Below, in pieces: positions 6,343 to 14,268 of a DNA stretch of 64,000 bases. The stretch is from contig NC_088938.1 of assembly GCF_033473495.1 (NCBI RefSeq), positions 1,426,001 to 1,490,000 on the forward strand. Direction: 5' to 3'. Numbering within the stretch: the stretch's first letter is position 1; every line of letters begins with the position of its first letter. The notes beneath the pieces are model-generated. The model saw nothing but the letters and a program-made list of their open reading frames with translations. It did not search any database and had not been told where the DNA came from. A program made the translations under genes and the position numbers. The stretch comes from Cercospora beticola. Lineage: Eukaryota > Ascomycota > Dothideomycetes > Mycosphaerellales > Mycosphaerellaceae.

Positions 6343-6825
6343 CACCAAGCTCTGTTCATCGTAGGAAGCAGGCGAAGCCTGATGGCGCTGCGCATGTATA
6401 TGTATTGCCACCAAATGTGCCGTTGCCTATTCTTCTTAGTGTACGACCTTGACAGTTTTGCTTACCCCCAGCAAATGTTGTCCAGGTCCACTGCCTTCCC
6501 GATTAGGCATGCATTTCCGGATCGTGAGAAGTTTCATTGGCGGAACTTGGCTTCACGCTAAGGGAAGACCTCTTCCGCCCTGGTTCAGACGCCGGCGGCG
6601 CAGGCTCATATGACTTGTGCTGGAGTTTGTTCAAAAGTCTTTTGACCGCCACATAATTCTAAGCAAGTCTTGTCGTTACAACGAGTCCGTCCTGAGTGTC
6701 CCATTCATCCCGGCGTATACTGATGAAAGTGGGGATGGCTCCGGGCCAAGGGACAGAGCTCAGCTCCATGTTCACCCCATTTGGCAGCCTGTATATTGTT
6801 GACAATCATTTCTTGGCACACGTTT
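6343..6825. other. Intergenic
   Basis: This stretch lies between the dehydrogenase and the tRNA-Thr gene. No gene or repeat is recognised. Confidence 0.5.
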
Positions 6826-6919
6826 GCCCGTTTAGCTCAGTGGTTAGAGCGTTCCACTCGTATGCATTGGTTGTATGCTTGTGATGGAAAGGCCAACTGT
6901 TCGACTCAGTTATCGGGCA
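6826..6919 (+). tRNA. tRNA-Thr (anticodon CGT) with 21-bp intron
   Basis: A full cloverleaf can be drawn. The acceptor GCCCGTT pairs with ATCGGGC except for one U6-U67 mismatch. The D arm is GCTC-AGTGGTTA-GAGC. The anticodon stem TTCCA/TGGAA carries CGT at 6859-6861. The T arm AACTG-TTCGACT-CAGTT is perfect, and the discriminator is A6919. A 21-bp intron (6863-6883) sits one base after the anticodon, the standard eukaryotic position. A TTTT run at about 6927 can stop Pol III. The spliced tRNA is 73 nt and reads ACG threonine codons. Confidence 0.85.
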
Positions 6920-7571
6920 GTGATCCTTTTGCCTGAGTGAGGCATGGGCCATTATTTTGGCCCACCGACGCACGAATACGATTGAGAACAACGCCGGCAG
7001 CGAGAATTATGTGCTGCAGAAAGCCAATCTTCCAAGGCATAGTTGCTACTGCTCAGCCCTGGTCGTTCACTTTTTTAGTGAATTGTATCTCAACGATGTC
7101 TGTGGCAGAAGCCCCAATGTACTGCGTCGAGACACTCATTTGTCCTTTTAGGTGAGCAGAAATGATGTACTTTTCTAGGACAAGAAGTTATTGGCATGAT
7201 CGATAATGTCTCCGGTGAATGGTCTAGTCTTCCACTTTTTGTGGCCACGGTCAAGGAACGGAGAGCTGCCTGAACACCATGCGTTACCTGTGACCCAATC
7301 CGGAGAGTAGCCTGGATCCATTACGCAGTTCAACGGGGAATAGACGTGAGCAAAAGTAGCTGTTGAACACCAAGCCAAAAACACAAACATATATTCAGCT
7401 GTTCCCTCCTTACCTGGAGCTCAGACTCAAACACATGCTGGTGCTTTTGAACATTCCACAAGAGGAGCAAAACGACAGCGAACAGCAAAGCAACAAAAAG
7501 ATGAGATGATCACCAGCGATGAAGCTGACCCCTGTTGCTTATTAGCCACTGTTCAGAGTTCGAAGGCACCT
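6920..7571. other. Intergenic
   Basis: This stretch follows tRNA-Thr and holds no recognisable protein gene or repeat. Confidence 0.5.
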
Positions 7572-9644: not shown

Positions 9645-11182
9645 GCGGAAGTCAATCGTTGGGCTGCTTGAGTTCTACAAGGGCGAGCAGCAATGGATTG
9701 AAAACATTTCAAATCAGCGTGGCTCGAATGGGTTCTCGGCCTTCTCGATTTCGCCCTTCGCTCTGAAGATGCAGCCTGTCTTTCTTGCAAGATGCCGAAT
9801 ACGGAGGATTCGAGCTCCTCCGCGAATGTTTCGGAGAATCCCGCATTTCGTGGCACTTCAAACGCTTCGCGGCACACTGCAGGAAGACTAGTTGGGAGAG
9901 AGTTCCTTGCGAAGTGCAGCATGATCTTTTGGCGGAGGAACATGAATAGCTTGCTCACGCTTCGCCGAACAGCATAGACCTGCCTGCTCGAGAATGGAAG
10001 ATCATCATAAGATGCAGCATATTCAATCTGTCCGTCCTCCCTCCGTAACGTGATCAGCTGGGGGTTGATTAGACGTTTCCTTTTTCTCTCCATTTTGTAG
10101 GCTAGGGACCACGAACCTTGCTCCTACTGACAGCTCTGAGCACATGGTCAAGAATCGTGACGGCTTGGGAGGCCTTTGCCGGGCGCTGAGACGCAGCTTT
10201 CGCGAGAACAGCGCGGTATCGTGCGCGGTAGACCCTGAGTCCAGGAGGCCTGAGCAGCTCTTGTGCAGCGCGGGCGACCAAGAATACATCAGCTTTGAGC
10301 CTTTGACAGACATCCTCGAAGATGATGCATTAGCGAATCAAGTTGCTGCAGAAGGCGGAGTTTGGGAGCCTGCCCAAGTCAGAGCCAGGTCATTATCAGG
10401 CTGCTCCTCAAGTGCAAGACGCGGCGAACTCGTGAGGGCTCCCCGAAATGGCCGCAGCATGAACCTTGCCTAATGCCATGGTGCAGCAGTGCTCCCGACT
10501 GCTTCTGATTGCAGCTGTTAGGGAGGGAAATCGGCACATCGCCGAGAATGGTTGCGGTCAGCATCCTTGAGAGAATTCCAGCTTGTCGGGAGTTACGACT
10601 TCCATGTCAGTATTTTCGTGATGCCCGCTTCTTTCCCAAGTTCGGCGATAGCTGGCGGCGAGACGGCCTGCAGTTACAGGTTGTGTTGGGCACAGCCTCT
10701 GCAGCAGCATACATTGACCGGATGGCATGTGGAGGCGCAAACAGGATGCTGGTATCACTGATTGATGGCTCGAATTCTCTGGATGCGCAACGTACTCCAA
10801 ATTGCAGTAGCTGGTGGCGGAAGGAGGGCGAAGCGGCGGGTCAATGCAAGAGCACGCGGCAGTGGCAGCAGCAAGGGAGCGAGTGGGCTGGGAGGCCGAG
10901 GGCATGACGTGGGAAAAGAGCTCAAGTGCACGAGCTGAGCAAAGCAGGAGAAGCAGGAAAGACAAGACATGATGAGACTGAATTGATGGATTTGAAAGAA
11001 GATTTGGTTTGAATTTGATTGAATTTGAGACTTTTGAAGTCTTTGAAAACCCCTGGCAAGGCAGCGAGAGCACTATGAACACCACACCAAACACCCAAAT
11101 GACCAAAGATTGCTGACTGCTGAAGACCACCACTGTAGACCACCCACCCATCTCTGACTTTGCTTGTGTTGTTGTTGTTGTT
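9645..11182. other. Gene-poor stretch
   Basis: No recognisable gene. A minus-strand frame of 152 codons (9635-10093) starts with ATG but matches no family I know and overlaps the deaminase stop by 10 bases. A longer minus-strand frame (10558-11244) begins inside the hairpin repeat and looks accidental. Confidence 0.4.
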
Positions 11183-11310
11183 TTGTCTTCTCGAGACAGC
11201 TCAGCGCATGGTCGCTGGAGTAATGGCCCACTCTTTCGTGCCATCTCACATCGTAAGCACCCGGAGGTGGCGCGCCGAAGTCGCTAACTGAGCTGAATTT
11301 CGAAGCAGAC
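11183..11310. repeat. Hairpin element copy 1 (83-bp core, unique inverted arms)
   Basis: The core at 11205-11287 is shared with two further copies. It is flanked immediately by CAGCTCAG (11197-11204) and its exact reverse complement CTGAGCTG (11288-11295). Complementarity continues outward imperfectly, with TCGA and AGAC blocks on both sides. The core contains a CACC/GGTG mini-hairpin and an ATGGC/GCCAT hairpin. Confidence 0.8.
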
Positions 11311-11319
11311 GAAGCAGGC

Positions 11320-11445
11320 TGGACTGACGACGACTCGGCGCATGGTCGCTGGAGTAATGGCCCACTCTTTCGTGCCATCTCACATCGTAAGCACCCGAAG
11401 GTGGCGCGCCGAAGTCGCTAACCGAGTCATCGTCGTCTGTGCCAG
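11320..11445. repeat. Hairpin element copy 2 (83-bp core, unique inverted arms)
   Basis: The core at 11339-11421 differs from copy 1 at one base. The left arm ends ACGACGACTCGG and the right arm begins CCGAGTCATCGTCGTC. After a 3-base indel these pair over about 20 bases, out to CTGG/CCAG. The arm sequence is unrelated to those of copies 1 and 3. Confidence 0.8.
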
Positions 11446-11483
11446 ATCGTCGCGTGTCGAAGATGTTGTTGTGTTGAACCAAA

Positions 11484-11595
11484 TGGCAGGTGCGTGGCGC
11501 ATGGTCGCTGGAGTAATGGCCCACTCTCTCGTGCCATCTCACATCATAAGCACCCGAAGGTGGCGCGCCGAAGTCGCTAACCACGCACACTGCCA
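11484..11595. repeat. Hairpin element copy 3 (83-bp core, unique inverted arms)
   Basis: The core at 11498-11580 differs from copy 2 at two bases. The left arm TGGCAGGTGCGTGG (11484-11497) and right arm CCACGCACACTGCCA (11581-11595) are complementary over 14 bases with one bulged base. The arm sequence again differs from the other copies while the core is conserved. Confidence 0.8.
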
Positions 11596-11922
11596 AGAGG
11601 TCGAATTTTGCTGCTGCCGCCCGTTTGCCCATCTGCCTGCTTTCTCGCCCGCCCAAGTCACTGCCCTGCTCTCTGCCTGCTCTGCCTGCTCTCTGCCCGT
11701 CTCTCGCTGCCTGCCGCCGTCTCGTTCGTGGATCTCGTTCGGTCGATTTCGGTGTCGTGATGTCGTGAAGTCGTGATTTGCTCGGTGTGCTGATTTTGAT
11801 GGTGGAAAAGTTGTCGCTGGCGTCGGCGGTCTCGATGGCGGCAGTGTCGATGTCGTGCGAGTGCGCGGTTGGCTGTTTGGCCGCCAAGATTGTTGGTGCG
11901 GCGAAAATGGTTGTGGTGCCAT

Positions 11923-12330
11923 GTGCGCTGTGATGTCAGTGAGGAGGAAAGGAGTGAGGTGAGGGGATCAGTGACTCACCGACTGAAGGTGCTGCTCGCA
12001 AGCTGCCGCCGACTCGTGCCAGTGAGGAGGTGGGAACCTCAGTGAAGTGCGCTGCGATGTCAGTGAGGAAAGGGGCAGTGAGGGGAGTGAGCGGTAAGTT
12101 ACCAGTGATGGCGCTGGTGACAGGCGCCAGGCTGACGGTTGATGTCGCCGCCTGTGCGAGTCAATGATGTGGTGGTTGACAGGCAGTGAGGTGCGCTGTG
12201 ATGTCAGTGAGGAATTGCAAGTGCGGTGAGTGAGGAGTGACTTACCAATTGATGGCGCTGGTGGCAGGCGACTGACTTTGACGGTTGATGTCGCCGCCGA
12301 TGTCAGTCAGTGATGAGTGATGGTTGATGG
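11923..12330. repeat. Degenerate tandem repeat, about 124-144 bp period, three units
   Basis: The phrase GTGCGCTG(T/C)GATGTCAGTGAG starts at 11923, 12047 and 12191. A second phrase, GATGGCGCTGGTG, followed by a GACGGTTGATGTCGCCGCC block, occurs in the last two units about 143 bases apart. Units are diverged. No coding role is seen. Confidence 0.7.
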
Positions 12331-12480
12331 TTGATGTTGAGTGATGGTTGATGGTTGATGGGTGATGTTGAGTGAGGTGATGTTGTTTGATGGATGTGTG
12401 TGGATGAATGAATGATGATTGATGATGATGATTGATGATGTTGATGTTTGATGATGATGTTGTGAGTGAGTGAAGGTTGT
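12310..12480. repeat. TGATGGT-type minisatellite / low-complexity tract
   Basis: Imperfect reiterations of TGATGGTTGATG, TGATGTTGAG and GATGATGATT fill this tract. Open frames read through it on the minus strand only as Ser/His/Ile/Asn low-complexity strings and should not be taken as genes. Confidence 0.8.
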
Positions 12481-12743
12481 TGCTGGTAGTGGAGGAAGCT
12501 GAAGAAGTGGATGGTAGTGGAGAGAAAAAAGATTGAGGAAGAGGGGAAGGTTGCCAGCAATTTATAGGAATGTTCTGACTAGCGCGTCCGTAGTGCGGGC
12601 CGTTCCAACTTTTCTGCGCCACGACGGCGACGGCGAGTGGCTTTCCTGTGGCACGACCAATGAGAGCAGCAGGGAGCAGGCAGATGCCAGAAGCTTCTCG
12701 CGGGGTTTGTCGGCGTTTGCGGCGTTTGAGGCCGGCGAGGGGG

Positions 12744-12967: not shown

Positions 12968-13741
12968 TCAGCGCTCGGCCATCTCCTGTATCACCTTCTC
13001 GAGGTTCTTCACATCATGAGCAAAGCGCCCAAGGAAGCAGCCATCCACGCCATCCTTCAGTCTCTGAAATGTACCAGGCCCAGCGGAGCCTCCATACAAG
13101 ATGCGCGTTCGGCCTTTCCTGTCCTGCACCAGCGCCCTCAAGCTTTGCGTGACTGCGACAACATGATCCGCGCCAGCAGGCTCAGCAGCGCCTATCGCCC
13201 ACACCGGTTCATAGGCCAGAATCACTTCTGCGTCATCTGGGACCTGCGAGAGAGCGGCTTGAATCTGGGGCTTGCACTCGCTCACAGCGAGGCCAACGGC
13301 TTGCGACGCGATTTGGCCCTTACTCTTCTCTCCGATGCACACAAGGGGGATCATGCCGTTCCTGACGATGGCAGCGGCCTTTTTGGCGACATCTTCATCT
13401 GTTTCCCCAAAAAGTCTTCTCCTCTCCGCGTGGCCGATCTCTACAATCTTCACACCAGCTTGACTCAAGGTCAATGGGCTGACCTCGCCAGTAAACGCGC
13501 CTTTGTCCTCACTGTACGAATCCTGAGCCCCAAGAAGTACGCTGGACTCGGCTAGCTTCTCTTTCGCCGAGAGCAGGGTGACGAAGTCCGGAATGACGAA
13601 GAGGTCGATTTCTGCCTTCTCAGCAACGCTCGAAAGCGCTGCAACCTTGTCGATGTAGTTGAGAGTGGACGGGAGATCGAAGTACATCTTGAGCGAAGTT
13701 CCCACGATCCGCTTCTCGCGCTTGCCAGGAATGGGCGGCAT
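12968..13741 (-). CDS. Triosephosphate-isomerase-like protein (divergent TIM paralogue)
   Basis: A single-exon 257-residue TIM barrel enzyme. Catalytic Lys18 (GTSLK), His104 (EIGHAERR) and Glu178 (AYEPVWAIG) are present, as is the phosphate loop YGGSAG. The Asn that normally precedes the Lys by two residues (NxK) is replaced by Ser16, and the lid loop after AIG reads AAEPAG instead of TGK-like. These changes mark a paralogue rather than the glycolytic enzyme. Known TIM-like paralogues isomerise related sugar phosphates such as erythrulose phosphate, so a non-triose substrate is plausible but unproven. I start at the ATG at 13741. The gene is divergent from the Zn2Cys6 regulator, with 527 bp between. 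Confidence 0.85.
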   Translation of the reverse strand: MPPIPGKREKRIVGTSLKMYFDLPSTLNYIDKVAALSSVAEKAEIDLFVIPDFVTLLSAKEKLAESSVLLGAQDSYSEDKGAFTGEVSPLTLSQAGVKIVEIGHAERRRLFGETDEDVAKKAAAIVRNGMIPLVCIGEKSKGQIASQAVGLAVSECKPQIQAALSQVPDDAEVILAYEPVWAIGAAEPAGADHVVAVTQSLRALVQDRKGRTRILYGGSAGPGTFQRLKDGVDGCFLGRFAHDVKNLEKVIQEMAER

Positions 13742-14268
13742 GGTTGCTGTGGTCAACGACAGGACTCAGTATGACATTCAAGTATGCCAGCGGGCAATAC
13801 ACGACCAAGAGAGTACTACATGGCGATGGGAAGGAAGAGGTGAAGTCGACGTGTGGGTCGCTCCACGTGTCGTGGATGCCTTCCTCATGTAGTATTCCGA
13901 CGCACCAGCCTTCCTCCTCCAAAACTCTCCCCTACAACTCCAACAACGCCCAACACCACATCTCTCACAAGACATGCTCTGCTGTAAGATTCATTTACGT
14001 CACGATTCCAAAGCACTGCATGACTTTGTACCAGAAGACAAGCGAGCACAGCGTACATACCATGCGGAGCTCAACGTGGCAATGTTCGCCGTCGCAATGC
14101 TAGTCTAGTCTGCTTTAGGGCTTCCCGGTCTGGCTCGACACGAGGCATAAGGATCTGTTGGCGCCATGCGATCTCTCACCACTCGTCTCCAGTATTGCGG
14201 AGAAGTAAGGCGAGAGACCTCAATTCTCGATCTCGCCGCATTGCAATCTTTTCTTTTCAGTTGTACAT
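13742..14268. other. Divergent intergenic region between TIM-like gene and Zn2Cys6 regulator
   Basis: This stretch must carry promoters in both directions. No specific binding site is assigned and no further gene is seen. Confidence 0.5.

Follow-up and report, generated by a model that had tools for sequence, protein, structure and literature searches.

RNAs of the bacterial CsrB/RsmZ type carry repeated protein-binding hairpins whose very short motifs lie in the hairpin loops, and tandem riboswitch aptamers, such as those for glycine, are tandem modules closed by variable stems. The locus described here resembles the former in repeating one recognition unit within one putative RNA, and it is without an Rfam match. 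It differs from tandem riboswitches in giving no Rfam match at E values up to 5, in a conservation of its core far above the usual, and in a core that alone does not fold stably. In Drosophila, the long non-coding RNAs roX1 and roX2 carry roXbox stem-loops repeated along a fast-evolving transcript, as described in the available part of the source (PMC4719309). On that partial account, the likeness lies in a short conserved motif placed in repeated stem-loops of one fast-evolving transcript, with function tied in roX to the number of repeats. The roXbox, however, is an 8-nt motif within the stem-loop, whereas the present array combines a fixed 83-nt segment with free stem letters; the two have no sequence relation, come from different kingdoms, and the array is known from sequence alone. 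Finally, the introner-like elements of Dothideomycetes are spliceosomal introns present in hundreds of near-identical copies in unrelated genes (PMC4457414, in the excerpt available). The array shares with them, as that excerpt presents them, the fungal group and the near-identical units, but it consists of three copies at one locus and has no splice ends.

We analyzed a stretch of 64,000 nucleotides of Cercospora beticola contig NC_088938.1 (positions 1426001-1490000; hereafter "the window", from whose start array coordinates are counted). The window contains three hairpins with private stems at one locus (Table 1). A preliminary description of this DNA, made from the letters, had reported three 83-bp cores with three differing positions, and we confirmed both the coordinates and the count: exactly three sites vary among the cores (minus-core positions 24, 35, and 53), and the other 80 positions are identical. 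The inverted arms that it had placed directly beside each core were also recovered, as 8, 7, and 8 perfect pairs in copies 1, 2, and 3, respectively. By direct reading, only a loose match continues beyond the 8 perfect pairs of copy 1, and the copy 3 arms form 14 pairs around one 1-nt bulge. The copy 2 stem reaches 13 pairs on the minus strand, including one G.U, at which the plus strand has a C.A mismatch. Searching positions 10900-11900 against Rfam (Rfam 15) at E values up to 5 yielded no match, and at gathering scores the whole window yielded a tRNA alone. Within the one paper library that was searched, no relevant description of such an array was found.

Table 1. Coordinates of the array and of neighboring predicted features, counted from the start of the window.
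Feature	Coordinates	Strand	Remarks
Left arm, copy 1	11197..11204	.	8 pairs with 11288-11295
Core, copy 1	11205..11287	-	83 bp; 99% identity with copy 2
Right arm, copy 1	11288..11295	.	
Left arm, copy 2	11326..11338	.	7 perfect core-adjacent pairs computed; extension to 13 by direct reading
Core, copy 2	11339..11421	-	83 bp
Right arm, copy 2	11422..11434	.	
Left arm, copy 3	11484..11497	.	8 perfect core-adjacent pairs computed; extension by direct reading
Core, copy 3	11498..11580	-	83 bp; 98% identity with copy 2
Right arm, copy 3	11581..11595	.	
Open frame	11246..11887	-	reads through cores 3 and 2; core translation common to P0001; used as probe
Predicted intron 3	11928..11979	-	52 nt
Predicted intron 2	12052..12102	-	51 nt
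Predicted intron 1	12196..12245	-	50 nt, GTAAGT...CTGAC...CAG
TATAAA, possible promoter element	12561..12566	-	proposed from the sequence

The arms had been said to differ completely between copies. This stood for copy 3, which looks unrelated to the others, and did not stand for copies 1 and 2. Read on the minus strand, these two copies match at 5/8 positions in the 3' arms and at 4/8 in the 5' arms (a direct reading, without a statistical test). Every difference between these arms, again by direct reading, is a transition, as would be expected of one old stem changed pair by pair. When the 25 nt outside the arms were compared for homology between copies, five of the six comparisons gave P values of 0.26 to 0.99. 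The sixth, between copies 1 and 3 on the left, gave P = 0.009, to which we attach no weight because six tests were made.

The complementarity of the flanks held up against controls. In each copy, the gapped anchored arm score was 12; when an 83-bp "core" was placed at random in the window 6000 times, the score never exceeded 10. Perfect runs of at least 8 at 83-bp spacing occurred at 2 of 63,700 window positions, both belonging to array copies. In the minus-strand alignment of the 8-pair stem, all 24 cells (24/24) are standard pairs, and 6 of the 8 aligned pairs have changed on both sides between copies, so that the compensatory changes that keep a stem in a structured RNA are found here among three paralogous copies. 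The observed covariation was reached by 1 of 500 shuffles for four of five measures and by 11 of 500 for the fifth, and sliding the stem partners by one to three columns left 20.8 to 37.5% of the cells paired. Similarly, 24-nt arms bind their own partners with -22.3 to -31.5 kcal/mol (-22.3 to -23.3 kcal/mol in copy 1), compared with -3.6 to -12.4 kcal/mol for the partners of other copies. When the whole array was folded, 7 or 8 core-adjacent pairs of each copy had a probability of at least 0.82 on either strand. Selection on the stems of the array, one of the origins that the preliminary description had offered, is supported by these comparisons between copies, in which 6/8 pairs are compensated, and by the visible arms kept copy by copy in a second species, Cercospora zeae-maydis.

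The second species was reached through the open frame that crosses cores 3 and 2 (Table 1). Used as a protein probe, it matched one protein at E values up to 10 among 901 candidates, the 125-aa hypothetical protein CERZMDRAFT_89608 of C. zeae-maydis (hereafter P0001). A query assembled from core translations in several frames had 18 candidates, with P0001 again the sole match; with the plus-strand ORF 11342-11776 as the protein query, none of 38 candidates scored. The comparison with C. zeae-maydis is thus made at the protein level, from the translation of P0001 alone. P0001 has the core translation twice (SVSDHGAPPSGAYDVRWHERVGHYSSTMR) and runs through the tail of copy 3 and the whole of copies 2 and 1, an order identical to the window's. 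Its first full copy matches copy 2, with the flanks DSVS and MRRV in both species alike, and its second matches copy 1, with FSSVS and MR-stop in both. The protein starts with MRHAHC, which agrees with a copy-3 core end that continues into the complement of the other copy-3 arm of the window, at a site where the window's own reading is MRHAPA, one base shorter; of copy 3, a single arm is visible in P0001. The window has a spacer of 51 nt between copies 2 and 1, where C. zeae-maydis has one of 56 nt by residue count; the spacer lengths between copies 3 and 2 are 76 nt and, assuming an intronless gene model in C. zeae-maydis, 149 nt, respectively.

These flanks also bear on pairing. Around copy 2, the residues of P0001 permit 9 contiguous pairs, a number that random flanks reached in 2.6% of 50,000 draws when wobble was allowed and in 0.7% when it was not. 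At pair 9, the window has A-T, whereas the codons TTY and GAY require T-A in C. zeae-maydis, a double change; pair 10 cannot form there. The copy-1 flanks permit 4 pairs, a number equalled by 27% of random flanks, and carry no weight. Both full C. zeae-maydis cores have lost one base ahead of ACCATGCG and have replaced F by H, which takes at least 2 base changes; each of these changes is found in 0/3 window cores.

Taken together, the same copy order, the matching arms, and the changes common to both full C. zeae-maydis cores suggest that the stems were kept copy by copy in an array that appears to predate the split from C. zeae-maydis. Because the arms indicate that the copies were already separate before that split, the cores seem to change together within a species, that is, to be homogenised by concerted evolution. 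The simplest cause, we infer, would be gene conversion that stops at the arms, where homology stops, and this would answer the puzzle of alike cores with unlike arms. The earlier argument, by which ordinary duplication should have brought a single arm sequence with it, does not hold for an old duplication in which the cores alone were homogenised. The P0001 model itself begins inside the copy-3 core and finishes in the copy-1 arm. With its ends in core and arm, it may represent a gene predicted across a hairpin array instead of a true protein.

We thus read the locus as a tandem array of old origin, made up of three structured RNA modules that would bind one partner repeatedly; we give this reading a probability of about 0.6, on a sample limited to three copies from a single species plus partial data, at the protein level, from a second. 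In each module, 83 nt of fixed sequence would be closed by a stem free to take any letters that pair. Gene conversion, together with selection, would maintain the likeness of the cores within a species. The arms, sitting where homology between copies ends, would escape conversion and change pair by pair with compensation, differing enough to pair with themselves and not with their neighbors. Transcription would run along the minus strand, with a TATA box and three small introns upstream of the array, and the RNA would probably be spliced; its most likely function would be to bind one partner repeatedly, be it a protein or another ligand. A more specific proposal, which we put forward tentatively and rate as possible but short of probable, is that of a riboregulator of Cercospora-related fungi, so far undescribed, in which three identical 83-nt receptor segments would evolve in concert, each insulated by an orthogonal stem from the segments beside it, and the stems would be selected both to differ and to pair.

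In the majority of RNA families, some stem positions and loops vary together, whereas here an 83-nt segment is near-fixed and the stem letters are almost free yet paired. Because three copies stand side by side in, seemingly, at least two species, the locus may serve as a natural test of how one RNA is divided between gene conversion and compensatory change. It would also test whether tandem RNA modules are selected against mutual pairing.

Folding of the core was assessed on both strands. By itself, the core was not more stable than dinucleotide shuffles (z of +0.49 to +1.63 over both strands). The z values were -0.51 to -2.82 for arms plus core and -0.85 to -2.49 for the core with 16-nt arms. 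Stable helices explain the conservation of the core less well than do sequence recognition, tertiary structure, or coding. The cues to the strand conflict. In copy 2, stem pair 8 qualifies as standard (by wobble) solely in minus-strand RNA, the predicted introns are on the minus strand, and the consensus fold has a slight minus advantage (-38.6 versus -36.6 kcal/mol). The recurring fold, on the other hand, points to the plus strand, on which the minimum-energy fold has the same branched shape in all three copies, whereas the minus-strand folds with 8-nt arms differ between copies. The plus-strand fold of copy 2 changed once its arms were cut at 10 nt. For a C. zeae-maydis core deduced from residues, the plus strand gave the same branched fold under both codon choices, and the minus-strand folds differed with codon choice. 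From these last two comparisons we drew no structure. Overall, we favor, short of proof, the minus strand for the putative array RNA.

The predicted minus-strand transcript would begin upstream of the array. All three of its predicted small introns have the usual ends and CTGAC branch sites and lie downstream of TATAAA. The first ATG of the predicted mRNA is at 11922, with none between there and the assumed start at 12535. In this ATG-free leader of 613 nt, 6.1 ATGs would be expected, and none of 2000 shuffles (0/2000) was ATG-free; for the spliced leader of 460 nt, 4.96 are expected (P = 0.001). Leaving out a simple-repeat tract makes the result less striking (2.87 expected, P = 0.033). The copy-3 core starts about 340 nt after ATG 11922, and the frame of that ATG ends inside copy 3. 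Between 11205 and 11580 on the minus strand, each core has the motif ATGTGA, an ATG followed by TGA, which could be a start-stop element if ribosomes scan the leader. The three similar introns of 50-52 nt on the minus strand come from an exon-intron unit that is tandemly duplicated at 12040-12327, with 80% identity over 147 bp. Neither the leader (11900-12340) nor the segment 10300-11190 had further copies in the genome.

It is unlikely, in our judgment, that the cores are repeats of a small minus-strand protein (VSDFGAPPSGAYDVRWHERVGHYSS per copy), with arms that are secondary or regulate its mRNA. In C. zeae-maydis, the core translation is kept except for F to H and the last residues, and, in the frame of P0001, 2 of the 3 differences among the window cores are silent. 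In C. zeae-maydis, the visible portions of the three copies are all in one frame, as are window copies 3 and 2; window copy 1, however, is in another frame, and the one-base loss within the C. zeae-maydis core shifts the frame at the core's end. The codon use of the pre-core part of frame 11246-11887 scores 0.031, which falls between the two reference sets (wrong frames at -0.040 for the 95th percentile and 0.0375 for the 99th; true coding at -0.044 for the 5th percentile and 0.109 for the median), but a frame other than this one begins at the first ATG (11922) of the predicted mRNA, and no Pfam family was found. The chief objection is that a purely coding account leaves no room for arms that pair and whose changes are compensated.

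A role in DNA, by which the arms would let each unit extrude or fold as a hairpin (a cruciform or a single strand) for binding, replication, or recombination, we regard as quite unlikely. Pairing is equally possible in DNA, the cues to an RNA strand are weak and conflicting, and the core by itself is not a stable RNA fold; still, the position downstream of predicted introns and the G.U pair of copy 2 fit RNA better. Moreover, stems of this length with an 83-nt tip make poor cruciforms.

The distribution of the core bears on mobile elements. We searched the 36-Mb genome (10 contigs), in which copy counts are lower bounds. Two DNA searches returned the three copies of the array and no others. 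Three patterns (22, 25, and 23 bases, up to 3 mismatches) matched the same three places alone, and their reversed controls matched none. The genome-wide search for the core that the preliminary description had proposed thus gives at least three copies, all at one locus, and copies at unlinked places, which would mark a dispersed transposable element, were not found. Because only three copies were found in 36 Mb, a dispersed element or an introner is unlikely. Near-identical cores between different flanks do resemble insertions, but we consider it very improbable that an 83-bp mobile unit was inserted three times, at palindrome centres or with inverted target duplication. A unit that makes inverted flanks should be dispersed, whereas these three copies share one place with no others found; in C. 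zeae-maydis each copy has retained its visible arms, and between copies 1 and 2 the arms are separated by transitions alone. Both of the insertion routes suggested earlier, inverted target duplication and insertion at palindrome centres, fit poorly with the finding of no other copy in 36 Mb and with an array that appears older than the C. zeae-maydis split. That the core is an introner-like element or another spliceosomal intron unit, an idea raised at the outset and favored by the occurrence of such elements in Dothideomycetes (PMC4457414, in the excerpt available), is scarcely credible, given that the array occupies a single locus as against hundreds of dispersed copies, and that the element ends carry no splice sites: when both strands were read, the boundaries of cores and arms showed no GT...AG ends common to the three copies.

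Wider sequence sets were also searched. A 17-base core pattern had no match in viral_contigs; in genome_contigs, it matched six bacterial contigs, which we took as chance. When P0001 was compared with viral_contigs, 4 stretches matched a pattern and none was confirmed.

Several other features of the window and of the assembly were recorded. Searching the 36-Mb assembly for 5.8S rRNA gave no match; rDNA may be absent from the 10 contigs, or the search may be limited. A short tandem repeat with 92-bp copies of 81% identity lies at 1425-1573, and a tRNA-Ile with anticodon TAT at 6825-6920. One reading frame in the window has a fungal transcription factor domain (Pfam Fungal_trans_2). A triosephosphate isomerase frame (Pfam TIM, E 4.8e-58) on the minus strand at 12968-13756 provides a landmark for the same locus in relatives.
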